Positions 502 through 53,316 of a DNA stretch of 64,000 nucleotides are shown here, piece by piece; position 1 is the first letter of the stretch; each line of letters begins with the position of its first letter. Both the position numbers and the translations under genes were made by a program. Under the pieces are notes generated by a model. It ran no database searches and was not told the origin of the DNA. It worked only from the letters and a program-made list of their open reading frames with translations. Source of the DNA: Thiocapsa marina 5811 (GTDB lineage Bacteria > Pseudomonadota > Gammaproteobacteria > Chromatiales > Chromatiaceae); assembly GCF_000223985.1 (NCBI RefSeq), contig NZ_AFWV01000009.1, positions 62,001 through 126,000 of the forward strand, given 5' to 3'.

Positions 502-1722
502 ATGGCCGGCGCGCCCTTGGCCTGCGTCCTGGCCCTGTTGATCCTGCTCACCGGTTGCCTACCGACCGACGAAGAGGCATCGCAGCCTGTCTCCGAACCC
601 ATCCGCCCGGTGCGGGTCGTCACCGTCGAAGAATTGCCGGGCGGGGAGCGCGTCACGCTGACCGGGACCGTCCAGGCCCAGGACGATGTCGCGCTGGCCT
701 TCCGCGTCGGTGGTCAGTTGATCGAACGTACCGTCAATGTCGGCGATCAAGTCAACGCCGGGCAGGTGGTCGCGCGTCTGGATGCGGTCAACGAACGCAA
801 CGCGGTGGATGCGGCGCGGGCCAACCTGGCCGCCGCAATGGCGCGTCTCGTGGAGGCCCGCAACACGGTGCGACGCTTCGAGCCGATGCTTCCGCAGGGC
901 TTCGTCGCCCGCGCGGACTTCGACCGGGCGGTCGAGGCGCGCGACGCCGCCCAGGCGCAGGTCGAGGCGGCCCAGGCTCAGGTCGCGACCGCCGAGAACC
1001 AGCTCGGCTTCACCACCTTGCTGGCCGATGGACCCGGCACGGTCACCGAACGCGGCGCCGAGCCCGGCGAAGTGGTCGCGGCCGGGCGCATGATCGTCCG
1101 CCTGGCCCGCGAAGCTGGCCGCGACGCGGTGTTCGACGTGCCGGCTCGGGTGATCGAGTCAGGCTCCGCCGACGACGAGGTCACGGTCGCCCTGAGCAGC
1201 GACCCTAAGGTCAGCACCAGCGGACGCGTGCGCGAGGTCTCGCCCCAGGCCGACCCGGTAACACGCACCTTTCAGGTCCGCGTCGGGCTGGCCAATCCAC
1301 CGGCCGCCATGCGCCTCGGTTCCACCGTGACCGGCAGCATCCAGCTCGGCGGCGCGGCCGGAATCGAGATCCCGAACTCGGCCCTGACCTCGACCCGCGG
1401 GGCGCCGGCGGTCTGGGTGCTGGATCCGCAAACCAACACCGTGGCCCTGCGCAACATCGACGTCGCGCGTTTCGAGCTGGACCGGGTGCTGATTGCGCAG
1501 GGTCTCGACGCCGGCGAGTTAGTCGTCACCGCCGGTGTCCAGACCCTGCGCCCCGGCCAGCAGGTGCGCCGACTCGGTGAACCGGTCCCTGACGAGACCA
1601 GTGCCGAGACCAGCGAACCGGCCATTGGTCAGGTGGGTGAACCGACCAGTGACGAGGCCGGCGACGACACTGGTGATACCGCCAGCGAGCCGTCTGTCGA
1701 AAAGGCCGAGGCCCGTCCATGA
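502..1722 (+). CDS. RND efflux periplasmic adaptor (membrane fusion lipoprotein)
   Basis: A 406-residue HlyD/AcrA-type adaptor that would link the inner-membrane RND pump encoded next to an outer-membrane channel. The chosen ATG gives a clean lipoprotein signal ending in the lipobox LTGC, with the acylated Cys at residue 19; the in-frame ATG at 376 would bury this signal behind 42 basic residues. After the signal come a lipoyl/barrel-sandwich half (GQLIERTVNVGDQVNAGQ), an Ala/Gln-rich coiled-coil hairpin, the second lipoyl half and a beta-barrel. The last 35 or so residues are an acidic Thr/Glu/Pro tail that looks disordered. The stop overlaps the permease start (ATGA), so the two are translationally coupled. 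Substrate cannot be told from sequence. Confidence 0.9.
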   Translation: MAGAPLACVLALLILLTGCLPTDEEASQPVSEPIRPVRVVTVEELPGGERVTLTGTVQAQDDVALAFRVGGQLIERTVNVGDQVNAGQVVARLDAVNERNAVDAARANLAAAMARLVEARNTVRRFEPMLPQGFVARADFDRAVEARDAAQAQVEAAQAQVATAENQLGFTTLLADGPGTVTERGAEPGEVVAAGRMIVRLAREAGRDAVFDVPARVIESGSADDEVTVALSSDPKVSTSGRVREVSPQADPVTRTFQVRVGLANPPAAMRLGSTVTGSIQLGGAAGIEIPNSALTSTRGAPAVWVLDPQTNTVALRNIDVARFELDRVLIAQGLDAGELVVTAGVQTLRPGQQVRRLGEPVPDETSAETSEPAIGQVGEPTSDEAGDDTGDTASEPSVEKAEARP

Positions 1723-4700
1723 GCGGCTTCAACCTCTCCGACTGGGCCATCCGCAATCGCTCGGTCACCCTCTTCATCATGCTCGCGGTGCTGGTTGCCG
1801 GCGTCAGCTCCTTCTACAAGCTGGGCCGCGCCGAGGATCCACCGTTCACCTTCCGGACCATGGTGGTCAAGGCCATCTGGCCCGGCGCGACGCTCGACGA
1901 GACCATTCGACAGGTCACCGAGCGCCTGGAGCGCACACTGCAGGAGGTGCCCAATCTCGACAACTTGCGTAGCTTCACGCGCGCCGGGTCCACGACCATC
2001 TTCGTCGACCTGACCGGCAGCACCCAGGGCCAAGCCGTCTCGGATGCCTGGTACCAGGTGCGCAAGAAGGTCGGCGACATGCGCCATACCCTGCCGCAGG
2101 GTATCCGCGGCCCTTTCTTCAACGACGAGTTCGGCGACACCTTCGGCATCATCTACGCCTTCACCGCCGACGGTTTCACCCATCGCGAGCTGCGCGACGC
2201 GGTCGAGGACGCGCGCTCCCAGCTCCTCACCGTGCCCGACGTCTCCAAGATCGACATCCTCGGTGCCCAGGACGAGGTCATCTATATCGACTTCTCCGCC
2301 GAGCGGCTCGCCGGCCTCGGCTTCGACCCGAGCACCCTGATCGCCGCGCTGCGCGCGCAGAACATCGTCAGTCCCGCCGGTGAGCTCAGCACCCGCGATG
2401 AATCCATCGCGCTGCGGGTCTCGGGTGCCTTCGCCAATGAACAAGACATCGCCGACGTCACCTTCGCCGTCGGCGAGCGCATGCTGCGCCTGCGCGACAT
2501 CGCCGATGTCAGGCGCGGCTTCAGCGACCCGCCGCAGCCCATGTTCCGCATCAACGGCGAACCCGCCATCGGGCTCGCCATCGCCATGCGCGACGGCGGC
2601 GATACCCTGGCGCTCGGGCGCAACGTCGCCAGCGCCATCGCCGACATCAAGGCCGAGCTGCCGCACGGCATCGAGCCGCGGCTGGTCGCCGATCAGCCGC
2701 TGACGGTGGATCTGGCCATCAACGAGTTCACCACCTCGCTATGGCAGGCGATCGGCATCGTGCTGGTGATCAGCTTCGTCGCGCTTGGCGTGCGCGCCGG
2801 CACCGTGGTGGCCATCGCCATCCCGCTGACCCTCGCCGTGGTCTTTCCGATGATGGACATGGTCGACATCGACCTACAGCGGGTCTCCCTCGGCGCATTG
2901 ATCATCGCCCTGGCCCTGATGGTCGACGATGCCATGACCAGCATCGACGCCATGAGCCGGCGCCTGGCCGCTGGCGACGACAAGGCCAGCGCCGCCACCT
3001 ATGCCTACAAACACTTGGCCTTCGCCATGCTGATCGGCACCCTGGTCACCATCGCCGGCTTCGTGCCCATCGGCTTTGCCCAGAGCTCCGCCGGCGAATA
3101 CACCTTCTCCATCTTCGCCGTGGTCGGCATCGCGCTGCTCGCGTCCTGGTTCGTCGCCATGGTGTTCGCGCCACTGCTGGGTATGGTGCTATTGCGTCCG
3201 CCCAAGGCCGGAGCGGCAGACAAACCGAATTGGACCGTGACCGCCTACCGCGGCCTACTGACGCTGGCCATGCGCGCGCGCTGGGTCACCATCGCGCTCA
3301 CCATCGCCGTCTTCGTCGCCGCCATCCTAGCGCTGGCACAGGTGCCGCGGCAGTTCTTCCCCTCCTCGGATCGCCCGGAACTGATCGTCGACCTGCGCCT
3401 GCCGCAAAACGCCTCGATCCACGCCACCGAGCGTCTGGTCGACGAATTCGAGCAGATCCTGCGCGAAGATCCCGAGCTCGCCTCCGAGATCGAACGCTGG
3501 AGCACCTACATCGGCCAGGGTGCGATCCGCTTCTACCTGCCGCTGGACGTGCAGCTGGCCAACCCGTTCTTCGCCCAGGCGGTCATCGTCAGCAACGACA
3601 TCGAGGCCAGAGAACGCCTACAGCCGCGGCTCGAAGAACTGCTCGCGGAGCAATTCCCGCAAGTGGTCGGGCGCGTCTCGCCGCTGGAGCTGGGGCCGCC
3701 GGTGGGCTGGCCAGTGCAATATCGCGTGCTCGGGCCGGACCCGACCCAACTGCGCGACATCGCCATGGACCTGGCAGATCTGGTGGCGGCTAGTCCCGGC
3801 ACGCGCCGCGTCAACTTCGACTGGATGGAACCAGAGCGCGAGCTGCACATCCGCATCGACCAAGAACAGGCGCGTCAACTGGGCCTGAGCTCCCAGGCGG
3901 TGGCCACCGCGCTCAATGCCAATATCTCCGGCACCCCCATCACGCAGGTCCGCGACGACATCTATCTGGTCAATGTCGTCGCCCGCGAGCTGGGCGGACA
4001 GCGCCTGTCGGTCGAGACCCTGCGCACGCTGCCGGTGTCCCTGCCGAACGGGCGCACCATCCCGCTGAGCCAGTTCGCGACCTTCGAGTACGGTCAAGAC
4101 TACCCGCTGGTGTGGCGGCGGGACCGGGTACCGACCCTGACGGTGCAGGCCGACGTCGCGCCCGGCACCCTGCCGGAGACGGTAGTGGCCGAGCTGGAAG
4201 CGCCCATCGCCGAGCTGAACGCGAGTCTGCCCGCGGGCTACCGCATCGAGCTCGGCGGCGCGGTCGAGGAAAGCGCCTACTCGCAAGCCTCGGTGTTCGC
4301 CGTGGTGCCCATCATGCTGCTGCTGATGCTCAGCTTGCTGATCTTCCAGCTCAAGAGCTTCGCGCGGCTGTTCATGGTCCTGAGCCTGGTGCCGCTGGGC
4401 CTGATCGGTGTGGTCGGCGCCCTGCTTGCCTCCGGCAAGCCGCTCGGCTTTGTCGCCATCCTCGGCATCCTCGCCCTGGTCGGCATGATTGCGAAGAACG
4501 CCGTGATCCTGATCGATCAAATCGAGGCCGAGCGCAATGCCGGCAAGAGCGTCTGGGACGCGGTGGTCGAGGCCAGCGTCTCGCGTTTTCGCCCGATCAT
4601 GCTCACCGCGCTCTCCACCATCCTCGGCATGATCCCGATCGCCCCAACGGTGTTCTGGGGCTCGATGGCCTACGCCATCATGGGGGGACTGGCGGTCGCC

Positions 4701-4805
4701 TCGCTGCTGACGCTGGTGTTCCTGCCGACGCTCTATGTCACCTGGTTTGGGGGAGAAGCCCCGCGCGCCGAGCCTACTCCGCAGGGGGAAGCCCATGCGA
4801 CCTAA
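1719..4805 (+). CDS. RND family efflux permease (AcrB/HAE-like)
   Basis: A 1028-residue inner-membrane proton-driven exporter of the RND superfamily, normal in length. It shows the two-fold repeat of a transmembrane helix, a large periplasmic porter domain and a block of helices. The proton-relay pair Asp403-Asp404 is present in TM4 (LMVDDAMTSID). The C-terminal half has the matching helix block (LALVGMIAKNAVILIDQ). It starts inside the adaptor stop codon (ATGA overlap), so both form one operon. The closing TAA is also the first three bases of a dispersed B-module repeat. A paralogue with the same N-terminal motif (SVTLF...LGRAEDP) is encoded at the right end of the window. Substrate is unknown; no outer-membrane channel gene is adjacent. 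Confidence 0.93.
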   Translation: MSGFNLSDWAIRNRSVTLFIMLAVLVAGVSSFYKLGRAEDPPFTFRTMVVKAIWPGATLDETIRQVTERLERTLQEVPNLDNLRSFTRAGSTTIFVDLTGSTQGQAVSDAWYQVRKKVGDMRHTLPQGIRGPFFNDEFGDTFGIIYAFTADGFTHRELRDAVEDARSQLLTVPDVSKIDILGAQDEVIYIDFSAERLAGLGFDPSTLIAALRAQNIVSPAGELSTRDESIALRVSGAFANEQDIADVTFAVGERMLRLRDIADVRRGFSDPPQPMFRINGEPAIGLAIAMRDGGDTLALGRNVASAIADIKAELPHGIEPRLVADQPLTVDLAINEFTTSLWQAIGIVLVISFVALGVRAGTVVAIAIPLTLAVVFPMMDMVDIDLQRVSLGALIIALALMVDDAMTSIDAMSRRLAAGDDKASAATYAYKHLAFAMLIGTLVTIAGFVPIGFAQSSAGEYTFSIFAVVGIALLASWFVAMVFAPLLGMVLLRPPKAGAADKPNWTVTAYRGLLTLAMRARWVTIALTIAVFVAAILALAQVPRQFFPSSDRPELIVDLRLPQNASIHATERLVDEFEQILREDPELASEIERWSTYIGQGAIRFYLPLDVQLANPFFAQAVIVSNDIEARERLQPRLEELLAEQFPQVVGRVSPLELGPPVGWPVQYRVLGPDPTQLRDIAMDLADLVAASPGTRRVNFDWMEPERELHIRIDQEQARQLGLSSQAVATALNANISGTPITQVRDDIYLVNVVARELGGQRLSVETLRTLPVSLPNGRTIPLSQFATFEYGQDYPLVWRRDRVPTLTVQADVAPGTLPETVVAELEAPIAELNASLPAGYRIELGGAVEESAYSQASVFAVVPIMLLLMLSLLIFQLKSFARLFMVLSLVPLGLIGVVGALLASGKPLGFVAILGILALVGMIAKNAVILIDQIEAERNAGKSVWDAVVEASVSRFRPIMLTALSTILGMIPIAPTVFWGSMAYAIMGGLAVASLLTLVFLPTLYVTWFGGEAPRAEPTPQGEAHAT

Positions 4806-14866: not shown

Positions 14867-14877
14867 CGGGTTCAAAC

Positions 14878-15070
14878 TAAACCGCGCCCGGCGCGGTATG
14901 CGATGTTTTTGGATGGGATCGGCCCCGGCCGATTTGACGAGTGCCGGAGCCGGCGCGGTTTAAGTTATTAAAAAATATATTGTTTTAAACCGCGTCCCCG
15001 CCAAAGGCTGTGCATGAACCAAACGTCGAACTCCCTCGAAAATTCAGCATCTCGCTCCGGACGCGGTTTA
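14878..15070 (-). repeat. Complete composite repeat, B-spacer-A (193 nt), minus orientation
   Basis: A complete copy read on the minus strand: A module 14986-15070 (85 nt), AT-rich spacer 14963-14985, B module 14878-14962 (85 nt). Both modules have perfect 11-bp termini (TAAACCGCGTC for A, TAAACCGCGCC for B). The total length of 193 nt equals that of the plus-strand copy at 25553-25745. It lies between the DUF1353-S41 gene and the MBL-fold gene. Confidence 0.9.
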
Positions 15071-16270: not shown

Positions 16271-16325
16271 GCGGTTCGGGGACGTTCGGACCGGATTCCC
16301 GATGGTGCGTCGCCGAGGTGGATCG

Positions 16326-18689
16326 ATGCGAGCACTGCACACCAAGCTCCTGCGGGATCTCTTCGACCTCAAAGGACAGGTCGCGGCCATCGCCGTGGTG
16401 ATCGCCGCAGGGGTGATGGTGCTGATCCTCTCCGTGACCACGCTCGATGCGCTGCGCCTGTCGCAGACCCGGTTCTACGACGACCATCATTTCGCCCATG
16501 TCTTTGCCGATCTCAAACGCGCCCCGGAGGGTCTCGCGGCGCGTCTGCGCGAGATCCCGGGCGTCAACCGAGTCGAGACGCGTGTTCAGGCACCGGTACG
16601 CTTGGAGGTCGCGGGTTTCGACGAACCCGTCCGCGGTTTGCTGCTCTCGATCCCGGACGGTCGTCAACCAGGGTTGAATCGGCTGTACCTGCGCGAGGGC
16701 GCACTCCCTGCGCCGGAACGCTCCGACCAGGTGGTGCTGAGCGAGCCCTTCGCCGAGGCGCAGGGCCTGCGGGCGGGCGATCGGTTGGAGGCGATCATCA
16801 ACGGCCGCCTCCAAACCCTGACCGTCAGCGGCGTCGCCCTTTCTCCCGAGTTCGTCTACCAGGTGGGGCCGGCCGACATCTTGCCGGACTACAAGCGGTT
16901 TGCGGTCCTCTGGATGAACCGGCGCGCGCTTGCCCACGCGATGGACATGGACGGAGCCTTCAACAGCGTCCTGCTCTCGCTGCAGGTCGGGGCCGACGAG
17001 GCGGCTGTCATCGAGGCGCTCGACGTGCAGCTGGCCCGCTACGGCGGCATCGGCGCGATCGGCCGCGCAGACCAGATCTCGCACCGCTTCCTTTCCGAAG
17101 AGATCGACCAGCTCCGCGTCATGGCCGTCGTGCTCCCCGCCATCTTCCTCTCGGTCGCGGCCTTCCTGCTCAATCTGTTGATGGGACGCATCATTCAAAC
17201 CCAACGCCAGCAGGTCGCGATTCTCAAGGCATTCGGCTATGCCAACCGGGACATCGCCGCGCATTACGGCCTTCTGACCGCACTCATCGTGGTCGCGGGA
17301 TCACTGCTCGGGATCGGGCTCGGGGCTTGGGCCGCCCACGGGATGGCCGGTGTCTACGCCGAATACTACCGTTTCCCGCAGACGAGCTTCCGCCTCGAGC
17401 CGCGGATCGTCGCCTTGGCCCTGTTCGTCTCCGCATGTGCCGCCGCGCTGGGTACCGGCCGCGCCGTCGGCCGTGCGGTCGCGATGCCGCCGGCGGAGGC
17501 GATGCGACCGCCCGCTCCCCGGCGCTTTCATGCCTCTTGGCTCGAGCGCTCCGCACTCGGTCGGCGACTCGACCAGCCGACCCGGATGATCCTGCGCAAC
17601 CTCCTGCGCCACCGTACCAAGGCCCTGCTCTCGATGATCGGGATCGGGCTGTCCGGCGGACTGCTGCTGCTCGGAAGCTATCAGTTCGGTGCGATCGACC
17701 ACCTGCTCGACATCCAATACCGGCTGGTCATGAATATGGATCTTCACCTCGGGTTCACCGACCCCACACCCGAGCGCGCGCTCGCCGAGCTGCGCACCCT
17801 GCCCGGCGTGGCCTATGTGGAGGGCTATCGCAACGTGCCCGTGCGACTCATCAAGGGCACCCGAGACTACCGCACCGGCATTCAGGGCCTGGAGCCAGAG
17901 CCGCGTCTGCGCGGCTTGCTCGACGCCGCCCATCGCCCGACCCGACTGCCGCCCGAGGGTCTGCTGATGACCCGCTTTCTGGCGGAGGACCTGGGGCTCG
18001 CACCCGGCGAGGAGGTGCAGGTCGAGATCATGGAGGGACACCGTCGAACCCTCAGGATCCCGCTCGCCGGGATCGTCGACGAGCCGATCGGCGTGAGCGC
18101 CTACATGGAGCGGCGCGCCCTGAACCGACTGATGGGGGAAGGCCCCGCGCTCTCCGGCGCCTGGCTGATGACCGACGACACGCAGCACGGCCGGCTCTTC
18201 GAGCGACTTTGGGAGGTGCCGCGCGTGGCCGGAATCGGCGTGATCGCCGATGCGGAGCGACAATTCCGCGACTATATCGACGACACCGTGCTGGTGACGA
18301 TGAGCATCCTGCTGCTGATGGCCGGCTCCATCACCTTCGCCGTGGTCTACAGCAACGCGCGGATCGCCTTCTCTGAGCGCTCGCGCGAGCTGGCTACGCT
18401 CCGCGTCCTCGGCTTCAGCCGGGCGGAGGTGAGCTGGATCCTCATCGGCGAGATCGCAGTCCTGACCCTATTGGCGATCCCCTTGGGCTGGCTGATCGGC
18501 ACCGGGTTCGCCGCGCTGCTGAGCTCGGCCATGGCGATGGACATGTTCCGTGTGCCCTTCATCATCAGCCGCCAGAGCTATGCCTTTTCGGCCGCCGGGG
18601 TGTTGCTGGCCTCGATCTTGTCGGTGTTCGCGGTTGCACGACTGCTCGGGCGGCTGGATATGATTGCGGCGTTGAAGACGATCGAGTAG
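16326..18689 (+). CDS. ABC transporter permease, FtsX/MacB-like (ABC3 family)
   Basis: A 787-residue inner-membrane protein with two FtsX-like modules. A first helix (residues about 20-42) is followed by a large periplasmic domain, then three helices (about 265-375). A second copy begins at about 420 (TKALLSMIGIGLSGGLLLLG) with another periplasmic domain and three C-terminal helices including FSERSRELATLRVLGFSRAE, a coupling motif of the family. The ATG at 16326 with GAGGTGG upstream is preferred to the ATG at 16302. The matching adaptor lies downstream (19207), but no ATP-binding subunit is encoded beside either gene. The permease therefore needs an ATPase encoded elsewhere. Confidence 0.88.
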   Translation: MRALHTKLLRDLFDLKGQVAAIAVVIAAGVMVLILSVTTLDALRLSQTRFYDDHHFAHVFADLKRAPEGLAARLREIPGVNRVETRVQAPVRLEVAGFDEPVRGLLLSIPDGRQPGLNRLYLREGALPAPERSDQVVLSEPFAEAQGLRAGDRLEAIINGRLQTLTVSGVALSPEFVYQVGPADILPDYKRFAVLWMNRRALAHAMDMDGAFNSVLLSLQVGADEAAVIEALDVQLARYGGIGAIGRADQISHRFLSEEIDQLRVMAVVLPAIFLSVAAFLLNLLMGRIIQTQRQQVAILKAFGYANRDIAAHYGLLTALIVVAGSLLGIGLGAWAAHGMAGVYAEYYRFPQTSFRLEPRIVALALFVSACAAALGTGRAVGRAVAMPPAEAMRPPAPRRFHASWLERSALGRRLDQPTRMILRNLLRHRTKALLSMIGIGLSGGLLLLGSYQFGAIDHLLDIQYRLVMNMDLHLGFTDPTPERALAELRTLPGVAYVEGYRNVPVRLIKGTRDYRTGIQGLEPEPRLRGLLDAAHRPTRLPPEGLLMTRFLAEDLGLAPGEEVQVEIMEGHRRTLRIPLAGIVDEPIGVSAYMERRALNRLMGEGPALSGAWLMTDDTQHGRLFERLWEVPRVAGIGVIADAERQFRDYIDDTVLVTMSILLLMAGSITFAVVYSNARIAFSERSRELATLRVLGFSRAEVSWILIGEIAVLTLLAIPLGWLIGTGFAALLSSAMAMDMFRVPFIISRQSYAFSAAGVLLASILSVFAVARLLGRLDMIAALKTIE

Positions 18690-21241: not shown

Positions 21242-21371
21242 TAAATCGCGTCCAGAGCGACATGTGTCGTTTTCACGTTGTATTCAGTCTTGGGAATTTC
21301 GCCGAAACCGGTGGAGAGGCGGTTTAGATTTCATATTTTTTAAGACCTTAAACCGCGCCCGGCGCGGTTTA
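21242..21371 (+). repeat. A module, AT spacer and B module collapsed to its ends
   Basis: An 85-nt A module (21242-21326; left end TAAATCGCGTCCAGAGCGAC, right end GAGAGGCGGTTTA) is followed by a 22-nt AT-rich spacer and a 23-nt B remnant (21349-21371). The remnant consists only of the two fused B ends, TAAACCGCGCC and GGCGCGGTTTA. This is direct evidence of internal deletion between the terminal repeats. Confidence 0.85.
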
Positions 21372-25206: not shown

Positions 25207-25451
25207 TTAATGGGCCGAGCGACAGCGAGGCCCAACCTGCGCCAATCACAACCATCCGCAGAACAAGGGACCGAAGCGATTCGAGTCGTCCTCTTCCACG
25301 AGTGTTGCTCGCACGACCATCGGGTTAGGCAACGCCTGGAAGGAGCGGACGATCGCGAACGGATCGGCACAGCGGAAACCACTGCCAAAGCGCGTTCGGC
25401 TCGATTCCCGAGTGCGTCGCGTTGACCGCGACCTCGCGTGCCGTCTGGCCG
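25207..25451. other. Intergenic stretch with a short GGGCC/GGCCC palindrome
   Basis: A GGGCC...GGCCC inverted repeat lies near 25212-25232 (GGGCCGAGCGACAGCGAGGC). Beyond that I see no convincing gene; short open frames lack family matches and ribosome sites. Confidence 0.4.
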
Positions 25452-25530
25452 GCTGAAGAGGACGACTGCAAGTCGTCTATCCCGGGGGATGTCGCCGCTT
25501 CGCGACGACCGTCGGCATCACGTCCGGCGA
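25452..25530 (+). repeat. Palindrome repeat family 2, copy 1
   Basis: Core palindrome GACGACTGCAAGTCGTC (25461-25477) preceded by GAAGAG and followed by CCCGGGGGATGTCGCCGCTT, where GTCGC/GCGAC forms a second small hairpin. Homologous copies lie at 34268-34345 and, inverted, at 45030-45092. Confidence 0.8.
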
Positions 25531-25552
25531 ATCCGATGTGCAGTTGGGATGT

Positions 25553-25745
25553 TAAACCGCGTCCAGAGCGAGATCCTTTCTTTCGAGTGATCTCGGCGTT
25601 TGGTGCATCCACGACCCTCAACGTGAACGCGATTTAAAATGATTTATTTTTTAATCTCCTAAACCGCGCCATCTCCAGCGGTCGTCAAAAACCGCCGGGG
25701 CCGATCCCATCCAAAAACATTGCATACCGCACTGGGCGCGGTTTA
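25553..25745 (+). repeat. Complete composite repeat, A-spacer-B (193 nt), plus orientation
   Basis: A module 25553-25636 (84 nt, TAAACCGCGTCCAGAGCGAG at left; right end GAACGCGATTTA with one change), AT-rich spacer 25637-25659, B module 25660-25745 (86 nt). The B interior shows GGCCGATCCCATCCAAAAAC and GCATACCGCACTGGGCGCGG. It ends 15 bases after the 3' end of the minus-strand FUSC gene. Confidence 0.9.
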
Positions 25746-33172: not shown

Positions 33173-33324
33173 TAAACCGCGTCCAGAGCAACATGCGTAG
33201 TTTTCATTTTGCTTTTGGCTTCGGAGATGTCCTCGATACCGGCGAGACGCGGTTTAGAATTTAATATTTTTGAGTACTTTAAACCGCGCCCACAAATGAC
33301 GCATACCGCACCGGGCGCGGTTTA
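33173..33324 (+). repeat. A module, AT spacer and shortened B module
   Basis: A module 33173-33256 (84 nt, TAAACCGCGTCCAGAGCAAC to GCGAGACGCGGTTTA), spacer 33257-33279, then a 45-nt B copy (33280-33324) which keeps both ends and the GACGCATACCGCACCGGGCG right half but lacks about 40 internal bases. It follows the WD40 stop by 14 bases. Confidence 0.88.
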
Positions 33325-33470
33325 ATACCATGGCCAACCAAACCTTAACGGACTCGTGACACCCGCTCCGCGGTGTCACGCATCCCCCGTGGCCGAAATT
33401 TCGAGCGAGTCACGGCGCGCCTAACCTCCGTCATGATATAGTCCGATGACCAACTCGCGTGGAGGTGCTC

Positions 33471-33719
33471 ATGCAGATACTTAGCGTAGCGGAAGCGAAG
33501 GCCCGATTGTCTGCCGTGCTGGCCCAAGTCGAAGCGGGCGAAGAAGTCGTCATCACGCGGCGCGGTGTTGCGATCGCGCGCATTGTGGCCGAACCCGCTG
33601 CCAGGTCCTCGCAGTTCGATATGGCCGAGCTATTCGCATTCGTCGATGGGCAACCCATGCATGTCGGCATGGATGCCGGTCAATTTGTCGGTGAAATGCG
33701 GACCGACGCGCGTTTCTGA
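33471..33719 (+). CDS. Phd/YefM-type antitoxin of a VapC pair
   Basis: An 82-residue prevent-host-death antitoxin: MQILSVAEAKARLSAVLAQV opens the DNA-binding part, followed by EEVVITRRGVAIARIV. The C-terminal half (FDMAELFAFVDGQPMH) is the toxin-binding tail. The ATG at 33471 sits six bases behind GGAGG; a GTG at 33459 is less likely. Its TGA overlaps the toxin ATG by one base. Confidence 0.9.
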   Translation: MQILSVAEAKARLSAVLAQVEAGEEVVITRRGVAIARIVAEPAARSSQFDMAELFAFVDGQPMHVGMDAGQFVGEMRTDARF

Positions 33720-34153
33720 TGCGGCGCTATTTCGACACTTCTTTGCTGGTAGCCGCCCTGATTCGTGAGGCCGGGACCGCGGCCGCAAAGACCTATTTGA
33801 CCGGCTGCGGCGATGAGCCTTGGCTCATTTCGCGTTGGGTCACCACGGAATTCTCTTCCGCACTGGCGATCAAGGTGCGTACCGGCATGATTACGACGAG
33901 CGAGCAGAACGCCGCACTGACCATGTTTCGCCGTTTCAGCGCACTGCGCCTGGACGTGGTGAATATCGAATCAGCGGATTTCGATGTCGCTGCGGAAATG
34001 TCAGGTCACAGCGGGGTTGCGCTGCGAGCTGGCGATGCATTGCATCTCGCCGTATGCAGACGCTTGGGGACCCGGCTGGCCACCTTCGACGCCGGACTGG
34101 CCGCAGCGGCAAACCACCACGGCGTGACAACCGACTTTCTTACGGCCCCGTAA
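33719..34153 (+). CDS. PIN-domain ribonuclease toxin (VapC-like)
   Basis: A 144-residue PIN-domain protein. Acidic residues expected in the metal site are present: Asp6 in YFDTSLLVAAL, Glu in WVTTEFSSALA, Asp in RAGDALHLAV and Asp in LATFDAGLA. VapC toxins are Mg-dependent RNases restrained by the antitoxin encoded just upstream (TGATG overlap). All catalytic positions appear intact, unlike the ParE-type toxin elsewhere in the window. Confidence 0.92.
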   Translation: MRRYFDTSLLVAALIREAGTAAAKTYLTGCGDEPWLISRWVTTEFSSALAIKVRTGMITTSEQNAALTMFRRFSALRLDVVNIESADFDVAAEMSGHSGVALRAGDALHLAVCRRLGTRLATFDAGLAAAANHHGVTTDFLTAP

Positions 34154-34267
34154 CAGCGTTGATTTCCGCCATCACCCGCCCGGCGAAATGGCGGAACCGC
34201 TATCGCGTTCCGCCCTACGACCCGGTGACCCCTTGAGTTGGGCCCAAATCCGCTGGCCGTCATGACA

Positions 34268-34345
34268 GCGGAAGAGGACGACTGCAAGTCGTCGATCCCG
34301 GGATGTTGGCGCTTCGCGACGATCGCCGGCGTCGCGTCCGGACGG
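34268..34345 (+). repeat. Palindrome repeat family 2, copy 2
   Basis: Core GACGACTGCAAGTCGTC (34277-34293) with GGAAGAG before it and GATCCCGGGATGTTGGCGCT after it. Similarity to the copy at 25452-25530 extends about 75 bases, including CGCTTCGCGACGA. It lies between the VapC gene and the 3' end of vsr. Confidence 0.8.
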
Positions 34346-34362: not shown

Positions 34363-34911
34363 TCACCCGTCTTGATCCGGATCCTCGTCGAGTGGCTTGG
34401 GGCCGATCCGATAGCGTCGCTTCTCTTCGGCGACCCGCAGTAACCGACGGGGATCGAGTGCCCCGATATCGCAGCCGCCACCCTCGGGCACGACAGCTCC
34501 CTCGGTCAATGCCTCGACAACGCGAGACGCAGCGGCGACCGGATCACGATACAGCTCGCATTCCCAGACGACGATGACCTTCCAGTCCGCGGCCTCGAGC
34601 GCGGCGACGGCCTCCGCGTCGCGCGCGACGTTGCGCTCGAGCTTCTCTTTCCAGAAGGCCGCGTTGGTGCGCGGAACGGTCGCGCGTTTGCAGTCGGCAT
34701 GGTGATGCCAGAAGCAGCCGTGAACGAAGACGACGGCGCGGTATTTGGGCAGGATGAGGTCCGGACGGCCCGGCAGTCCGCCGCCGCTCAGTCGATACCG
34801 AAAGCCGAGCCGATGCAGCGCGGAGCGCAGGATCCACTCGGGCTTGGTGTCCTTACCGACGACTCGGGCCATGAGGCGCGAGCGCTGGGCCGGGGTGAGC
34901 TTGTCCGTCAC
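34363..34911 (-). CDS. vsr: Very short patch repair endonuclease (Vsr-like)
   Basis: A 182-residue Vsr-family DNA endonuclease. Motifs include RLMARVVGKDTKPEWILR at the N-terminus, the catalytic GRPDLILPKYRAVVFVHGCF with FWHHHADC, and WKVIVVWECEL. Vsr nicks T:G mismatches that arise by deamination of 5-methylcytosine in Dcm sites. The start is a GTG that overlaps the stop of the upstream GGDEF-EAL gene (GTGA). No cytosine methyltransferase gene is adjacent, which is unusual. A C-terminal extension of about 45 residues beyond WECEL is present. Confidence 0.9.
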   Translation of the reverse strand: MTDKLTPAQRSRLMARVVGKDTKPEWILRSALHRLGFRYRLSGGGLPGRPDLILPKYRAVVFVHGCFWHHHADCKRATVPRTNAAFWKEKLERNVARDAEAVAALEAADWKVIVVWECELYRDPVAAASRVVEALTEGAVVPEGGGCDIGALDPRRLLRVAEEKRRYRIGPKPLDEDPDQDG

Positions 34912-37900
34912 CGGGCAAGCCGTTGCCTGCTCGCAGCCTGCAGAGGCAAGGGGCGATCCGAATCGGTGCGCAGCAGCGCGGTGATGGCGTCGGGATCCAA
35001 GGGCCGGCTCTTCAGATACCCCTGGAAGAGATCGCAGCCTTGGTCGCGCAGGATATCGAGCTGGGATCGGGTCTCGACACCCTCGGCCAAGACCTGCAAT
35101 CCGAGGGCATGGCCCATCGCGATGATCGCGTCGACGATGGTGCGGGCATCGGGCTGCTGGTCGATCTCGTCGATGAATCGCTTGTCGATCTTCAACAGGT
35201 CCAGGCGGAACCGGCGCAGATAGGCGAAGGAGGAATAGCCGGTTCCGAAGTCGTCCACCGCCATCCTGATTCCTTGCGCTCGCAGGCGTTCCAGAACACC
35301 CAGGGTGTCGCCCTCGCGCTCCATCAGGGCGCTCTCGGTGAGCTCGAGCTCGAGACGATCCGCCGGGAAGCCGGTTTGCCGAAGCACGCGCGCGACGGAC
35401 TCGACGATATCGGTTTGACGCAGCTGATACGCGGAGAGATTGACCGCGATAACCAAGGGGGCGATGCCGGCCTCCATCCAGAGCGCCCCTTGCCGACAGG
35501 CCTCGTGCAGGACCCACTCCCCGAGCGGGCCGATCAAGCCGGTCTCTTCGGCCAGCGGAATAAACTCCCCGGGCGGGATCAAGCCGCGCTCCGGGTCGTT
35601 CCAGCGCACCAACGCCTCCACACCGATGATACGGCCGGTGGCGATCTCGACCTGGGGTTGATAGTGGGCAACCAATTGCCCTTCGGCCAAGGCGTCGCGC
35701 AGTCGCCGCTCGGTCTCCACGCGCTGTCGCGCGCTGTGGGTCAGATCCTCGGTATAGAAATCGAATCGACTGCGCCCCCCCGCCTTCGCCCGATAGAGGG
35801 CGGCGTCGGCTTGGCGGAGCATCTCGCCGGCATTCAATCCCGGCCCCTCGCAGAGACTGATCCCGATGCTCGCCCCGATGCGTACCTCGACCCCGCCTGG
35901 AAGCACCGCGGATTCGCCCACGGCGGCGATCAAACGCTCCGCTGCGCGGGCCGCGGCCTGCGGGTCGGGGAGATCTTCGAGCAGGATCGCGAACTCGTCG
36001 CCGCCGAGACGTGCGAGCGTGTCGGCGGGATCCAGGCAGCCGGCAAGGCGCAGCGCGGTCTGTTTCAGCAGCACGTCGCCCGCCGGATGGCCGAAGCTGT
36101 CGTTCACGTCCTTGAAGCGATCCAGGTCCAGCAAGAGCAGCGCCAGATGCTGATCTTCGCGGATCGCGACCGCGATCGCGTGATCCAGCCGCGAGACCAG
36201 CAGGAGGCGATTGGGCAAACGGGTGAGTGGGTCATGGTGGACCAGGAAGTCCAATCGGGACTCGGACTCCTTGATCTGCGACAGATCCGAGAAGGCGCCG
36301 ACGAACTGGATCACCTTTCCCGAGACGTCCTTGACCGCGCTGATGTTGAGCAGCACCGGATAGAGCTCGCCGTTCTTACGTTGGTTCCAGAGCTCGCCCT
36401 GCCAGTGCCCGGTTTCGCCGATGGTCGACCAGAGTGACTCGAAGAAGGCGGCGTCATGTACCTCGGGGCTCAGGAGCTCCGATGTCCGTCCCACCGCCTC
36501 GCCCTCGGAATACCCCGTCAAGGCCACGAACGCCCCGTTGACCTGCACGATACGGCGATCGCAATCCATCACCATGACGCCTTCGCGCGTATTCTCGAAC
36601 AAGGCCGCGGACAACCGCAGGCGCTCCTCCTGGCGCTTGCGCTCCCCGATATCGTCGACGGTCGCGACGAAATAGTTGACCGTGCCGTCGGCGTGTCGGA
36701 CCGCGCGCACATCGATCGCCGCCTGGACGACCTGCCCGTCCTTGCGCACGAAGCGCTTTTCCATCGCGTACCCGTCCGAATCCCCTGCCATCACCCGCCC
36801 GAACTCGTCTAGATCCGCGTCGAGATCCCCGGGATGGGTCAATTCGCTCCAGGTCTTCTCGGCCAACTCGGCGCGCCCATAGCCGAGGATCTCGCAAAGC
36901 CGATCGTTGAAGTGAACCCACTGCTTGGTGAGCGGCGAGGTAATGGCCATCCCGACAAAGGGAAGCTCGTAGAACTTGGTCAACAGGCGATCATTTTCCG
37001 CGGCCTGCGCCTTCATCTCCAGGCGGTGGGCGCGCTGCTGCAAACGCCAAAACGAGAAGGACAGGATGCCGGCCACGACAATCGCAAAAAAGGCGATGAG
37101 GCTGACCCAGAAGACCAGGACCTTCAGCGGGGACATGACCTCCGCACGATCGATCTTCGCGATCAAGCGCCAGTCGGTCCCTTCGATCCGATGGTAGACG
37201 GCTAAGACGCGAACGCCTCGATAATCCATCCCCGGGACCCGCCCGGTTGTCGCGGCCTGCTGGAGGGCTGCCGTCGCCGGGAGCGGTTGGGAGAGCGGCA
37301 CCTGCCGGCTCAAGGGCAACCACCGCTCGTGCCGAGGCGCCGTCATGAAGACCGCAAGGTCGCCGACCCGATCGACCACCAGCGTCTCGGCACTCGGACT
37401 GGAGGTCGGCCAGGTCTGGAAGAGCGGAAAAAAGAAGGTTTGCGGCTTCGCGTGCAGAACAACGGCCGCAACCACGCGCTGCGTATCGCCATCCATGACC
37501 GAAATCGGCACGATCCAGTCCAGATGGACGACGCCCTCGTCGTCCTGATAGAGATCGCTCCGCAGGATCCGCCCCTCGGCCCGGGCCCGCACGGCCAATG
37601 CCTTGAGCGCCTCGGAAGGCAGGTGGCTTTCCAAGAGCGCGAGGACCACGTCACCCCGGGAATCGAGGAGCATGACCCCGTCGTAGCCGCGGGCGTTCGC
37701 CAACGCGGCGAGTCGCTCCGAGACCTCCGCGGCGAGCGATGGATCCGCATCCGGCTCGCGCAGCAGGCCGGCGACGCGCCGAGAGAACGCCGCGTCGGAT
37801 GCCAGAAGTGCCCCGTCGGCATCGCGAACCGCCATCCACTGCTCCAATTGATTTGCCTTCAGCGCGGCGATCGCCTCGAGGTTCTCGTACGCATCGCGCT

Positions 37901-43649: not shown

Positions 43650-43668
43650 ACGCAGGTCTTGGAATCCT

Positions 43669-43751
43669 GGACCGCGCCAACTCGGGCACGCGTGATTTCA
43701 GCCGCAGCCGATCCGCTCCAAACAAGACACAGACCGCTTCCTACGCGGTTT
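43669..43751 (+). repeat. Degenerate B module between convergent kinase and galE genes
   Basis: GGACCGCGCCAACTC at the left and CTACGCGGTTT at the right, with interior CAGCCGATCC, CTCCAAACAA and GACACAGACCGC, match a B module with many changes. Its right end overlaps the last codons and the TAG stop of galE (43741-43751), so the repeat encodes the final Glu-Thr-Ala of GalE. Confidence 0.55.
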
Positions 43752-44763
43752 CGCCGCCGAAGCCTTCCGGGTTCTCCGACTGCCAGCGCCAGGTATCGCG
43801 CACCATCTCGTCGATTCCGAGCTCGGCCTCCCAACCGAGCTCCGACTTCGCGAGGGCGGGATCGGCATAACAAGCGGCGATGTCTCCCGGCCGGCGCGCG
43901 ACGATCTCGTAGGGCACGGGCCGTCCGCTCGCGCGCTCGAAGGCCGCGACCATATCCAACACGCTGTAACCTTGTCCGGTACCCAGGTTGTAGACCACGA
44001 CGCCGGGCCGCTGTGCGAGTCGATGCAGGGCCGCAAGATGTCCGCGGGCCAAGTCGACGACATGGATGTAATCGCGCACGCCGGTGCCGTCCGGGGTGGG
44101 ATAGTCGTCGCCGAAGACGCGCAGTCGCGGCAGCTTGCCGACCGCGACCTGTGCGACATAGGGCATCAGGTTGTTCGGAATGCCGTTGGGGTCCTCGCCG
44201 ATGCGCCCGCTCGGGTGCGCGCCGACCGGATTGAAATAGCGCAGCAGCGCGATGTTCCAGGCCGCGTCCGAGACGTGAAGATCGCGCAGGATCTCCTCGA
44301 TAAAGAGCTTTGAGCGGCCGTAGGGATTGGTCGCCGACAACGGAAACCCCTCTCGGATCGGCACCGTCGCCGGATCCCCGTAGACCGTGGCCGAGGAGCT
44401 GAAGACGATGTTCTTCACCCCTGCCGCCGCCATCGCCTCACAGAGTGTAATGGTCCCGCCGACGTTGTTGTCGTAGTAGGCGAGCGGGATCTCGACCGAC
44501 TCCCCGACCGCCTTGAGTCCGGCGAAATGAACAACCGCATCGAAGACGTGCTCGCGAAAGATCGCATCGAGTGCGGCACGATCGCGCAGATCCGCCTCGA
44601 TGAATGTCGGCCTTCGGCCCGTTATCTCGCCAACCCGCCGCAGCGACTCCTCTTTACTGTTGCAGAGGTTATCCACCACCACGACGTCCATACCCGCCGC
44701 CAACATCTCCACGCAGGTATGGCTGCCGATATACCCCGCCCCGCCCGTCACCAGAACACGCAT
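43741..44763 (-). CDS. galE: UDP-glucose 4-epimerase
   Basis: A 340-residue extended short-chain dehydrogenase that interconverts UDP-glucose and UDP-galactose with bound NAD. The NAD-binding [10 protein letters not shown] motif is at residues 6-15, with the catalytic Ser/Tyr-x3-Lys (SSATVYGDP... YGRSK) and [15 protein letters not shown], a family signature. Length is normal. The ATG at 44763 has GGAG nearby and gives the canonical MRVLVTGG start. It ends within a degenerate repeat. Likely supplies precursors for surface polysaccharide. Confidence 0.97.
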
Positions 44764-49581: not shown

Positions 49582-50400
49582 ATGCAACACCTTACACCCC
49601 AGGGCCAACAGATCGTCGACGATATCGCCCGGCGTCACGGCTTCAGCCAGGACGCAGTCACCCACATGTTGATCGCCGTGCTCAACGGCAACGGCGGCAT
49701 GGCCCAATTCAGCCACCCGGAATTCGGCGGCTCGGGCCAGTGGATGCAGGGCGGCATGCTGATGCTCGGCGACATGTTCAACTCCTCCCTCAAGGGTCGG
49801 GTCGACGCACTCTGCTACGAGCTCTCCAACCTGCTCGCCAACCAGCCGGGACTGCTTCAGAGCGGGAGCTTCCAATCCCAGAGCCAAGGCGGCGGATCCT
49901 TTCAAAACCAAACCAGCGGAGGCGTGCGCGGTCAATCCGATCTCTTCGTGCCGGACCCCGCCGATCACTGGTGGCCGCATGAGCTCGGCGTACCGAGCGC
50001 GACCGGCAGCCAGAACAACGTCAAGTACGCCTATTTCGCCGACGCACGGCGTCTGGCGGTGAACACCGGAGGGGATGTCTGGGTGTACGACACGTTGGAT
50101 CATCAGATCGGGGGCTTCTCCCAGCAGCAGGGTAGCGGCGGCTCGATCAGCTTCGGCAGCCAATACGGCACCATCGATCTCGGACGCCTCCCGGTCGTCT
50201 CGCGCAACGGTCAACCCGCGGCACATGCGCCGGCCTCTGCGTCGGATCAGTCCGGGCAGTATCGGCCCGCCCCGAGCCCCGGAGCGAGCGAGGGCGATAT
50301 CTTCGCCGCCATCGAGCGTCTCGGCGATCTCAGGTCGAAGGGCATCCTCACGGACGATGAGTTCAACGCCAAGAAGGCCGAGCTGCTCGCACGCCTGTAG
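49582..50400 (+). CDS. SHOCT-domain protein, function unknown
   Basis: A 272-residue soluble protein. The N-terminal region (LTPQGQQIVDDIARRHGFSQ, then LNGNGGMAQFSHPEFGGSGQ) is conserved in bacterial SHOCT proteins. A Ser/Gln/Gly-rich linker follows, then a middle beta-rich domain (HWWPHELGVPSATG, VNTGGDVWVYDTLDHQIGG). The last 32 residues form a SHOCT helix pair (RLGDLRSKGILTDDEFNAKK). SHOCT domains often mediate oligomerisation. The ATG at 49582 begins the conserved region. A heptamer array starts right after its stop. Confidence 0.8.
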   Translation: MQHLTPQGQQIVDDIARRHGFSQDAVTHMLIAVLNGNGGMAQFSHPEFGGSGQWMQGGMLMLGDMFNSSLKGRVDALCYELSNLLANQPGLLQSGSFQSQSQGGGSFQNQTSGGVRGQSDLFVPDPADHWWPHELGVPSATGSQNNVKYAYFADARRLAVNTGGDVWVYDTLDHQIGGFSQQQGSGGSISFGSQYGTIDLGRLPVVSRNGQPAAHAPASASDQSGQYRPAPSPGASEGDIFAAIERLGDLRSKGILTDDEFNAKKAELLARL

Positions 50401-50401
50401 C

Positions 50402-50591
50402 TGGAAGCTGGAAGCCGGAAGCCGGAAGCCGGAAGCCGGAAGCCGGAAGCCGGAAGCCGGAAGCCGGAAGCCGGAAGCCGGAAGCCGGAAGCCGGAAGCC
50501 GGAAGCCGGAAGCCGGAAGCCGGAAGCCGGAAGCCGGGAGCCGGAAGCCGGAAGCCGGGAGCCGGGAGCCGGGAGCCGGGAGCCGGAAGCT
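50402..50591. repeat. Heptanucleotide tandem array (GGAAGCC)n, about 27 units
   Basis: Starts one base behind the SHOCT stop codon. The first and last units are GGAAGCT, the central units are uniform GGAAGCC, and near the right end GGGAGCC variants appear singly and then in a run. A seven-base period does not keep frame, so coding function is unlikely. It lies between convergent genes. The uniform core suggests recent slippage expansion. Confidence 0.95.
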
Positions 50592-50619
50592 GTAATCTCC
50601 GCCTTCGCCGACCCGCCGA

Positions 50620-52059
50620 TCAAAGATACGGCGAAAACAACCGCGCGAATCCGTCGCGCAGCTTCACCGGAATCGAGCGGGCGGCAAGCTCGGCGAGCGT
50701 CAAGGCCCGGCTCGCGGCGATCTTGGCGTCCACCAGCGCATGGAGCCGGCGCGACAGCTCGTGATCGTAACATTCGAGGTTGTACTCGAAATTCAGGCGC
50801 AGGCTGCGCGCATCCCAATTGGCCGACCCGAGAAACGACCAAGCGTCGTCGATCAGCATCAATTTGGTGTGATCGAAGGGCGGCGGGGAGAGCCGGATGC
50901 GGCAGTGTCCCTCCAAAAGCGCGTCGACTTGGGCCTGCGCGGCCCACTGCACGAGCTTCAGATTGTTCTGCTCGGGCATCAGGATCTCGACATCGACACC
51001 GCGCAAGGCGGTCACATTGAGCGCGGCGATCAGGGTCTGATCGGGCAGGAAATAGGGCGTGACGATCCGAACCCGCTCGCACGCCGCGCTCAGCGCACCC
51101 AGAATCATCCGTCGGATGACGTCGAAGTCCTCGTCCGGCCCGTCGGGAACGCCCCGTGCGAGGGTCGTTCCGACGTACCCCAGCACCGGATACCAAGTGT
51201 CCCCGCCGAGCCGCTCTCCGGTCGTGAAGGTCCAGTCCAGCGCGAAGGCCTCGACGAGGAAACGCACGACCGGACCTTCCACACGCAGGTGCACGTCTCG
51301 GATCGGATGGCGCGGACGGGACGCCAGCAAGGAGCCGGCGCGAATATTCAGGCCGCCGGTGAAGCCGACGCGCCCGTCGACCACCAGAATCTTGCGGTGG
51401 TTGCGCAGATTCAGGTACTGGCTCTTCACGGGGAGCACGGAGGCGAGAAAGACCGCGCTCGGGATCCCGCGACGGCGCAAGATGCGCGGCATCGCCGGAC
51501 GACTGTAACGTTGACCGACCCCGTCGACCAGGACACGCACGGCAACGCCGCGCCGATGCGCCCGCTCGAGTGCATCGGCGAAGAGCCCGCCGACGCTGTC
51601 GTTGTCGAAGATGTAGGTCGAGAGCCCGATAGTCTCCTCGGCCCGATCGATCGCCTCGAGCATGCGTGGATAGGCTTGATCGCCGTCGATCAGGACATCG
51701 ATCCGGTTACCCGCCTCCAGCGGCAAACCGGTCAAGGCATCGCCGAGATGACCCAGACGTACCAGATGCGGATACCGGGCATCCAAGGCACGGCGGGCGC
51801 AACGCTCCCCGGCCAACTCGGCACGGTCGCTGGCCTCCGATGTCTGCGGACGCAGCCGATGGGCCTTGCGGGTAATACGGTTGATCCCGAAGAGCCAATA
51901 GAGCACGAGACCGACCACCGGAGCCAACATGACGAGCCCCGCCCAGCCGACCGTCGATGGCACATCGCGACGCCCGAGCAGGAGATGGGCCACCGTGGCG
52001 ATCCGCGCGGCGAGCTCCAATCCCAACAGGGCTCCCGTCCAGAGGGTTTGGTCAGGCAT
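50620..52059 (-). CDS. cls: Cardiolipin synthase (phospholipase D family)
   Basis: A 479-residue inner-membrane enzyme that joins two phosphatidylglycerol molecules to cardiolipin. Two N-terminal helices (about 8-30, 38-57) are followed by two PLD half-sites: NHRKILVVDGRVGFTGG and DHTKLMLIDDAWSFLGSANW, both with HxKx4D. Length and domain order match the ClsA type. It is transcribed alone, convergent with the SHOCT gene; the aspartic protease gene lies upstream on the same strand. Confidence 0.94.
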   Translation of the reverse strand: MPDQTLWTGALLGLELAARIATVAHLLLGRRDVPSTVGWAGLVMLAPVVGLVLYWLFGINRITRKAHRLRPQTSEASDRAELAGERCARRALDARYPHLVRLGHLGDALTGLPLEAGNRIDVLIDGDQAYPRMLEAIDRAEETIGLSTYIFDNDSVGGLFADALERAHRRGVAVRVLVDGVGQRYSRPAMPRILRRRGIPSAVFLASVLPVKSQYLNLRNHRKILVVDGRVGFTGGLNIRAGSLLASRPRHPIRDVHLRVEGPVVRFLVEAFALDWTFTTGERLGGDTWYPVLGYVGTTLARGVPDGPDEDFDVIRRMILGALSAACERVRIVTPYFLPDQTLIAALNVTALRGVDVEILMPEQNNLKLVQWAAQAQVDALLEGHCRIRLSPPPFDHTKLMLIDDAWSFLGSANWDARSLRLNFEYNLECYDHELSRRLHALVDAKIAASRALTLAELAARSIPVKLRDGFARLFSPYL

Positions 52060-52901: not shown

Positions 52902-53316
52902 GACTCCGGACTCCGGACGCGATCGGCGCGAAGGATGGGACGGTGAAAAAGTGGCTTGAACAAGAGAGAGACTAGCAGCGCGCCGGAGTCCGGGCTACCG
53001 CCCTGTTTCGTCCAGCCCCGCGCTCGGGGATGCCGAGTCGAGCCTTCCGGGTCGGATACGCGCACAAGACCGTGAAGAAAACCGGGAAAAATGGGATCCG
53101 TTTCTTTATGATCACCGGTCTTTCGGTGGTTCCTTCAAGGCGCAGAGACAGGATGCGTTCACGTTTCGAGCCCGCGCCGCTCCATCTGCAGAACCATCCG
53201 AAGGAGCCGTCGTTTCCCGACGCCGTGCCCCTAAACAACAGGTCCGACCGGCATCGCGCCAAAGGCTCGGCGCCGAATCCGTGACAAGGCCCAGAACACA
53301 AAGAGGACACTCAAGC
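52902..53316. other. Divergent intergenic region between protease and SLC13 genes
   Basis: About 415 bases that must hold the start regions of both genes. A TATGAT box at 53107-53112 resembles a -10 element facing the SLC13 gene, but no matching -35 is seen. AGAGGA precedes the SLC13 ATG. No small gene is recognised. Confidence 0.35.

Follow-up and report, generated by a model that had tools for sequence, protein, structure and literature searches.

Repeat copies in the 64-kb window

The window analysed here is a 64,000-nucleotide stretch of the genome of Thiocapsa marina 5811 (G000 below), and ten loci in it carry modules of a dispersed repeat family, with one complete copy at 25553-25745. 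Their coordinates are collected in Table 1. All ten had been claimed in a preliminary description, and each was found in its place, at most 1-2 nt off; the degenerate copy, for instance, is present with bounds of 43668-43752 instead of 43669-43751. The two complete copies (25553-25745 and 14878-15070) are both 193 nt long and opposite in orientation, as had been reported. Matches to TAAACCGCG with at most one mismatch number 35 in the window, against 10.3 expected from 100 dinucleotide shuffles, of which the largest value was 19.

Table 1. Modules and spacers of the repeat family in the window
Element	Feature	Start	End	Strand	Remark
4803	Solo module B	4803	4888	+	
5552	Truncated module A	5552	5597	+	Between two Mrp-antiporter genes
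5552	Module B after truncated A	5623	5707	+	
14878	Module B	14878	14962	-	Second complete copy, 14878-15070, 193 nt
14878	AT-rich spacer, 23 nt	14963	14985	-	Second complete copy
14878	Module A	14986	15070	-	Second complete copy
18693	Old solo module	18693	18776	+	3 nt past stop codon of ORF 16302-18689
21242	Module A	21242	21326	+	
21242	Collapsed module B	21349	21371	+	23-nt hairpin remaining
25553	Module A, A1-type	25553	25636	+	Complete copy, 25553-25745
25553	AT-rich spacer, 23 nt	25637	25659	+	Complete copy
25553	Module B, B1-type	25660	25745	+	Complete copy
32014	Deletion derivative	32014	32072	+	
33173	Module A, A2-like	33173	33256	+	
33173	Shortened module B	33280	33324	+	
43668	Degenerate module	43668	43752	+	
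55276	Old module	55276	55357	+	Orthologs in G001, G002, G004, G008, G010
55276	Second old module	55378	55463	+	

Two of these copies begin on the stop codon of a gene. The TAA at 4803-4805 that ends an AcrB-like ORF (1719-4805) is the start of the solo module B, and the TGA at 55276-55278 that ends ORF 53281-55278 is the start of the old module there. The latter copy had been called A-A; its two modules are real, but clustering by interior places them in neither A family.

States with and without the element are found among relatives at 14878, 25553 and 32014. The 14878 element is absent from G004, whose left alignment ends at 14877, while G004, G008 and G002 are without both the 25553-25745 element and the stretch left of it. 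At 32014, a full 193-nt element is present in G004, none in G008, G002 and G010, and the deletion derivative is common to the host genome and G001. The host genome also shares the 152-nt form at 33173 with G002. The G004 ortholog of the degenerate module has better ends, and the orthologs of the 18693 module in G002 and G010 read TGAACC..GGTTCA, a compensatory change.

Some neighbouring features were recorded as well. Directly adjoining the complete copy on its left is a different dispersed repeat some 270 nt long (25284-25553), of which similar copies with 83-93% identity exist elsewhere in the host genome and the genus; a related stretch lies at 34251-34341. The 33173 element (region 33173-34153) is flanked by a gene for a WD40-repeat protein and a PIN-domain gene, and G001, G008 and G010 have other DNA there. 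A 384-aa ORF at 34363-35517 has a Vsr-type DNA mismatch endonuclease domain. At 50346-50630 there is a tandem array of a 14-nt unit, with 14 registered copies of the 103-nt reference, which overlaps predicted ORFs.

Architecture of the element

The family is built from units of about 85 nt with 11-nt pairing ends, which occur singly or as a 193-nt double element in which a 23-nt AT-rich spacer joins two modules. Modules start with TAAACCGCG and finish with CGCGGTTTA. When lengths of 60-110 were considered, a sharp peak appeared at 84-86, which held 121 of the 163 candidates in 864 kb; the reversed control gave 8 candidates altogether. The ends of A and B differ at position 10 in the way that had been claimed (GTC/GAC in A, GCC/GGC in B). 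Modules A and B exist, but each comprises two interior families, A1 and A2 in the one case and B1 and B2 in the other. Clustering of the interiors of 138 modules yielded 54 B, 21 A1, 18 A2 and 45 others, and these 45 have the same ends and length without a sizeable family of their own, four of them forming two pairs. The lowest best-neighbour interior identities were 0.53-0.59 (minimum to lower quartile), and single shuffled pairs had a mean of 0.44 and a 99th percentile of 0.52.

In a 1.024-Mb sample of G000, we counted 50 double groups, 64 single ones and one triple. This sample includes contigs picked for listed hits (C45, C47, C48), and per-genome copy numbers are given as whole-genome end counts. 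The spacer measures 21-24 nt in 42 of the 50 double elements, with a mean AT content of 80%. Since an AT-rich spacer-like stretch persists on one side of 26 of the 64 single modules, compared with 0 of the 50 outer flanks of doubles, many singles are taken to be the remains of doubles.

Little conserved interior RNA structure besides the terminal stem was found with RNAalifold in A1, A2 and B; for B, with its two subfamilies mixed, even the terminal stem was not recovered. Immediately interior to the right arm of B (25725-25745 in the window, and other B modules) there is further complementarity, TACCGC...GCGGT, which lets B modules also form a short right-end hairpin; the collapsed copy at 21349-21371 is such a hairpin. 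The left end, often the stop codon, is recurrently duplicated over 7-11 nt in tandem (L241, L278, L246, L154, L158, L226, L267, L038:2610 and L049:8155), and the duplicates sometimes carry identical variant letters, as if a copying error had been linked to the hairpin.

Distribution across genomes

The preliminary description had named confinement to the window as its refutation, and the ends are in fact spread genome-wide: the host genome (5.59 Mb) holds 791 exact TAAACCGCGNC ends compared with 18 for the reversed control pattern. In a search of 56 genomes for exact TAAACCGCGYC ends, eight of the 11 Thiocapsa genomes (host included) had 322 to 1446, the remaining three had 2 to 9, and one genome of another Chromatiaceae genus had 167. 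The family is abundant in most of these Thiocapsa genomes and patchy in other Chromatiaceae. Of 210 genomes of the order, 24 contain the two-module junction (CGCGGTTYA, 18-26 nt, TRAACCGCG), and they represent 10 of 61 genera; the reversed control of this junction was found in three of the 210 genomes, once each. Among the loci obtained with a protein query, 2 of 18 carry element ends, with little synteny.

Collections of plasmids, phages and viral contigs gave no match to the element, and carriage by phage or plasmid was rejected on this ground. An Rfam scan of the window at the gathering score returned a tRNA alone, so the element matches no catalogued RNA family there. No description of the family was found among the papers listed in searches of the open-licence literature of PubMed Central, by host family or genus name included. 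Within these sources the family is, as had been supposed, apparently undescribed.

Target site and mobility

A 192-nt copy of the host genome (C54:168661-168852) is missing in G004, where both flanks are intact. The empty site in G004 is ..cctgttgaATAgtcgcttg.. (..ttgaATAgtc..) and the full site is ..cctgttgatTAAACC..GGTTTAgtcgcttg.. (..ttgatTAAACC..GGTTTAgtc..), which reads as insertion at TA with a duplicated TA on both sides; the duplication is taken from this site, the one empty site of which both sides are clean. Across the 115 groups, C or T precedes the element in 111 and A or G follows it in 111; both hold in 107, which thus have Y-TA-R flanks. We consider the mobility of the element to be well supported.

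The features that mark a MITE were found together, namely short length, 11-nt terminal inverted repeats, empty sites in relatives and a TA target site duplication (at one clean site). With 193 nt or about 85 nt, the element is too short to contain a transposase gene. No IS630-type parent with shared ends was found among 32 of the 48 DDE_3 matches (host genome and genus), and on this result the assignment as an IS630 MITE was rejected; the parent transposon may be lost or may be among the other 16 matches. By eye, no transposase was seen among 40 listed of the 54 intervals bracketed by element ends. We class the family as MITE-like with a TA target, and neither as an IS630 MITE nor as a REP.

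Two kinds of locus came up during this search. Multi-copy DDE_3 transposase units with TA-flanked TACCTCATATAGGC ends exist in G001 and G010 (L307, L314, L320, L322, L323, L327); their ends are about 1.17 kb apart in five of the six and are unrelated to those of the element. A 598-aa ORF in L045:10328-13339 lies between sequences like element ends, which may be there by chance, and by eye, from a motif, it looks like a putative reverse transcriptase.

Elements at stop codons

Gene ends were taken from our own codon-usage ORF caller, not from published annotation, which gave 835 genes in 1.024 Mb. Three of the 118 groups overlap genes and were omitted from the stop-codon statistics, leaving 115, of which 72 lie in tandem, 31 in convergent and 12 in divergent context; the background of 467 intergenic regions of at least 100 nt has 76 convergent and 98 divergent ones. 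In 54 of the 115 groups, the element and the stop codon of the gene before it start at the same base; this stop is TAA in 44 cases and TGA in 10, while all stops of the sample amount to 533 TGA, 155 TAA and 147 TAG. Element ends thus make up 44 of the 155 TAA stops in the sample, because an element entering the TA within TAA or TAG restores a TAA. Stop-sited elements are followed by A in 23 cases, G in 29, C in 1 and T in 1, in agreement with the TAA:TAG ratio of stops that are not element ends (111:147), not with TGA.

Occupied Y-TA-R sites are much more frequent at stop codons (54 of 169) than in noncoding DNA (61 of 666; odds ratio 4.7, Fisher p 2e-12). The corresponding counts point the same way, with 10/37 versus 8/185 in Thiobaca, 12/31 versus 16/152 in G010 and 7/54 versus 7/298 in G004. 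Occupation is also common at noncoding Y-TA-R sites that follow a stop within 60 nt (30/120, compared with 54/169 at stops). As the stops are just slightly richer than these near-stop sites, gene 3' ends in general may be what is preferred.

Orthologous gene ends in relatives

For 25 stop-sited elements, drawn from 19 recent and 18 old candidates, the gene ends were located in six relatives; alignments had to reach position 70 of 110, and G007 entered the set via earlier loci. The element end is at the same base in 61 of the 109 ortholog rows. In the 48 rows without it, a stop codon is exactly at that base in 43 and not in the other 5. The stops in the 43 rows are 28 TGA, 9 TAA and 6 TAG; a TA target cannot use TGA, and therefore later turnover of the stop codon must be assumed for the 28, which counts against a plain TA-target account. 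At least 4 of the 43 carry an element or a remnant 6-10 nt onward or at the stop itself.

At loci 0, 7 and 21, the species differ in the module family or in the orientation of the element on a given stop codon, a pattern suggestive of more than one insertion at a single site. Inversion of the whole element was considered for loci 0 and 7 and rejected, since the A modules there belong to different families and separate insertions fit better.

Conservation of ends and drift of interiors

The divergence of ends and interiors was evaluated by three measures, given here from the least to the most biased. Among 103 copies of four families found by their interior alone, interiors were 12-21% off the family consensus and ends 5-6%. 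In 11 module pairs of G000 and G004 that were matched through both flanks or through gene order, 21 of 242 end positions and 127 of 679 interior positions had changed, so that the ends of this set are just about twice as conserved as the interiors. Nine of these pairs have 0-3 end changes and the other two (43668 of the window and one G004 copy) have 6 and 7 of 22; some copies are decaying at their ends. In the first modules of stop-sited orthologs (up to nine loci), interiors differ by 22-27% and ends by 1-6%, and fourfold-degenerate sites of the neighbouring genes by 24-33%; these orthologs, like most of the 21 pairs used below for length, were recognised by their ends, and end divergence is understated in them. 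From the three measures together we conclude that interiors drift at about the synonymous rate and that, in the sets not chosen by ends, the ends change two to four times more slowly than the interiors.

Module length is probably held as well. Among 21 pairs of G000 and G004, 18 are equal in length, and there are 14 indels compared with 27.8 expected (p 0.003), an expectation derived from just 25 element-free intergenic regions.

Covariation of the arms

Covariation was evaluated in 213 modules chosen without a pairing filter, a set that includes chance hits (38 in the reversed control and 10 in the shuffled one). Matching changes on both arms were found at 59 end positions, while 2000 shuffles gave a mean of 12.5 and a maximum of 24. 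When position 2, where TAA/TTA becomes TGA/TCA, was left out, 24 compensated positions remained (mean 3.6, maximum 12). Full compensation is seen in 27 of the 33 modules that have a single change per arm and in 7 of the 25 that have two; the same figures are 0/1 and 0/11 in the reversed control and 0/0 and 0/5 in the shuffled one.

Matched switches also occur between orthologs, in six modules at five loci. The 18693 module of the window switched at position 2 (G002 and G010 against G000 and G004), locus 13 at position 6 of module 1 and position 2 of module 2, locus 18 at position 6, and loci 22 and 23 at position 2; for locus 22, G001 has an intermediate that is changed on one arm. Selection on the hairpin is moderately supported.

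For genes in one direction, unpaired transitions on the sense strand were 23 G.U and 4 A.C under a loose pairing filter (p 3e-4). The counts were 34 and 16 when the pairing filter was dropped and three further genomes were added (p 0.015), 24 and 14 without position 4 (p 0.14), and 4 and 4 in divergent contexts. As to whether the hairpin is selected as RNA or as DNA, these values are suggestive of RNA.

Discussion

The results support the claim of a dispersed family of two-module palindromes that is mobile and sits mostly at gene 3' ends. The earlier picture was supported in part; it lacked the ends on stop codons, the Y-TA-R target, the covarying arms with drifting interiors and the many modules that share ends and length only. 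Our reading, to which we assign a probability slightly above one half (about 0.53), is that of a MITE-like TA-target element which rebuilds the stop codons it enters and of which many copies are kept as a hairpin at the gene end. The mobile form would be the 193-nt unit of A, 23-nt AT-rich spacer and B, its modules closed by the 11-nt inverted repeat beginning TAAACCGCG, and it inserts at Y-TA-R with duplication of the TA, as seen at one clean empty site and in agreement with the flank counts, presumably by means of a transposase acting in trans that is lost or encoded outside the searched sequence. Insertions into stop codons are harmless and common because TAA and TAG contain the target and the element continues with A, by which TAA is rebuilt. 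In many retained copies, both arms, the stop codon included, are more conserved than the interior and covary, and the roughly 62 nt between them drift at near-constant length. Selection would then act at the level of mRNA, on a stem with the stop codon and the eight nucleotides after it as its 5' arm. Since a ribosome on the stop codon would cover this arm, the stem would close only after the ribosome leaves. As its most probable function, such a stable stem at the 3' end of the coding region would block 3'-to-5' exonucleases at the stop codon or, by analogy with what is reported of REP hairpins near stop codons, modulate termination. More tentatively, and with odds that we place below even, the mobile palindrome may have become a standard gene-end part of the genus, which replaces TAA or TAG with its own TAA, is then kept by selection as an mRNA hairpin with the stop codon in the stem and a free interior of fixed length, and so couples stem closure to the departure of the terminating ribosome.

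A purely selfish MITE family, whose 3'-end copies survive removal elsewhere and whose arms are homogenised by template switching during replication, is an account that we find less likely than our own reading but the strongest of its rivals. Template switching is reported, in the parts of the sources that deal with hairpin arms, to create and to keep matched arms (PMC8794818, PMC8604942), and the recurrent left-end duplications look like its products. Near-stop noncoding sites are occupied almost as often as stops, and the flank-anchored ends are just about twice as conserved as the interiors, with some decaying. Homogenisation alone, however, would not slow the change of the arms, which is two to four times less than that of the interiors in the unbiased sets, and the sense-strand excess of G.U, weak as it is, would not be expected from a DNA process. 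An intrinsic or bidirectional transcription terminator spread by transposition would account for the convergent and divergent counts relative to the intergenic background, and, read in gene sense, 14 of 25 stop-sited doubles have a T-rich spacer behind the first hairpin (6 have an A-rich one and 5 are tied). We nevertheless judge it improbable, as the stem encloses some 62 nt instead of a short loop and a T-run of at least four within 15 nt downstream follows just 5 of the 54 stop-sited elements. It seems more improbable still that the inverted 11-nt ends, about 84 nt or nearly eight turns apart, bind a nucleoid or looping protein with the interior as a ruler: conserved ends and length, a free interior and the regular spacer of the doubles would suit this, but a fixed protein site does not predict matched changes on both arms.

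The preliminary description had likened the layout to that of REP pairs in BIMEs, and this likeness did not hold up. The hundreds of palindromes in E. coli, some no more than 15 nt from stop codons, are indeed similar, and where REP hairpins lie that close to a stop codon they are reported to stall ribosomes and to reduce translation, in the portion of PMC12306157 on these hairpins (for the palindromes see also the corresponding portion of PMC3733652). In the same accounts, REP sequences are 20-40 nt long with an unpaired GTAG or CGTC tag, and those with GTAG are linked to RAYT (PMC12306157, PMC3733652). The present family differs in that the stop codon itself is inside the stem; its modules of 85 nt exceed the REP length given in that part of PMC3733652, and neither unpaired tag was found in the element sequence. 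Eight Y1_Tnp loci are present in the genome, and none of the eight is bracketed by copies within 1.5 kb on each side; L053 has one module at a distance of about 1.4 kb. A REP/BIME family moved by RAYT would agree with the high copy number, the palindromes and the paired layout, yet in view of the tag, the module length, the TA duplication and the lack of bracketed Y1 genes we rejected it, and it seems to us hardly credible.

Intergenic elements with large palindromes are known from elsewhere; RIME1 of Rhizobium has two of them, and the present family may be likened to it. Small repeats that supply stop codons are already known from the pneumococcal BOX, and the present family is a further such case. 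According to the sections of PMC3049150 on gene overlap, 58 coding sequences of S. pneumoniae overlap BOX and 36 of them end in it with a BOX-encoded stop codon; those sections give no strong evidence that the BOX-ended genes are truncated relative to orthologs. As compared by description, both are modular small repeats supplying stop codons; BOX differs by its boxA-boxB-boxC layout, while matched arm change and drifting interiors are features of the present family (PMC3049150, as far as its description of BOX goes). RUP of S. pneumoniae and Correia/NEMIS of Neisseria are, in the descriptions drawn on here, likewise small non-autonomous elements with terminal inverted repeats, and RUP also inserts at TA and is described as folding with paired ends, but both are single-unit elements (PMC2229807, PMC3049150, PMC4853749). 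The density of RUP, in the same descriptions, is greatest 50-150 bp from genes, while about half of the present family is on the stop codon (PMC2229807, PMC3049150, PMC4853749). For RUP, moreover, the passages on its mobility propose IS630-Spn1 as partner (PMC2229807), and no partner was found for the present family among 32 of the 48 DDE_3 matches.

If our reading is true, the family is a case, open to direct test, of a small transposable element becoming a recurring part of genes. The system offers many natural insertions in stop codons, alleles without the element in sister species, compensatory arms, and near-neutral interiors that can serve as an internal clock. It would also illustrate how a TA-target element is tolerated in dense genomes, by landing in stop codons and repairing them, and the role of stop-codon hairpins in mRNA decay and termination would become testable in cultured Thiocapsa.
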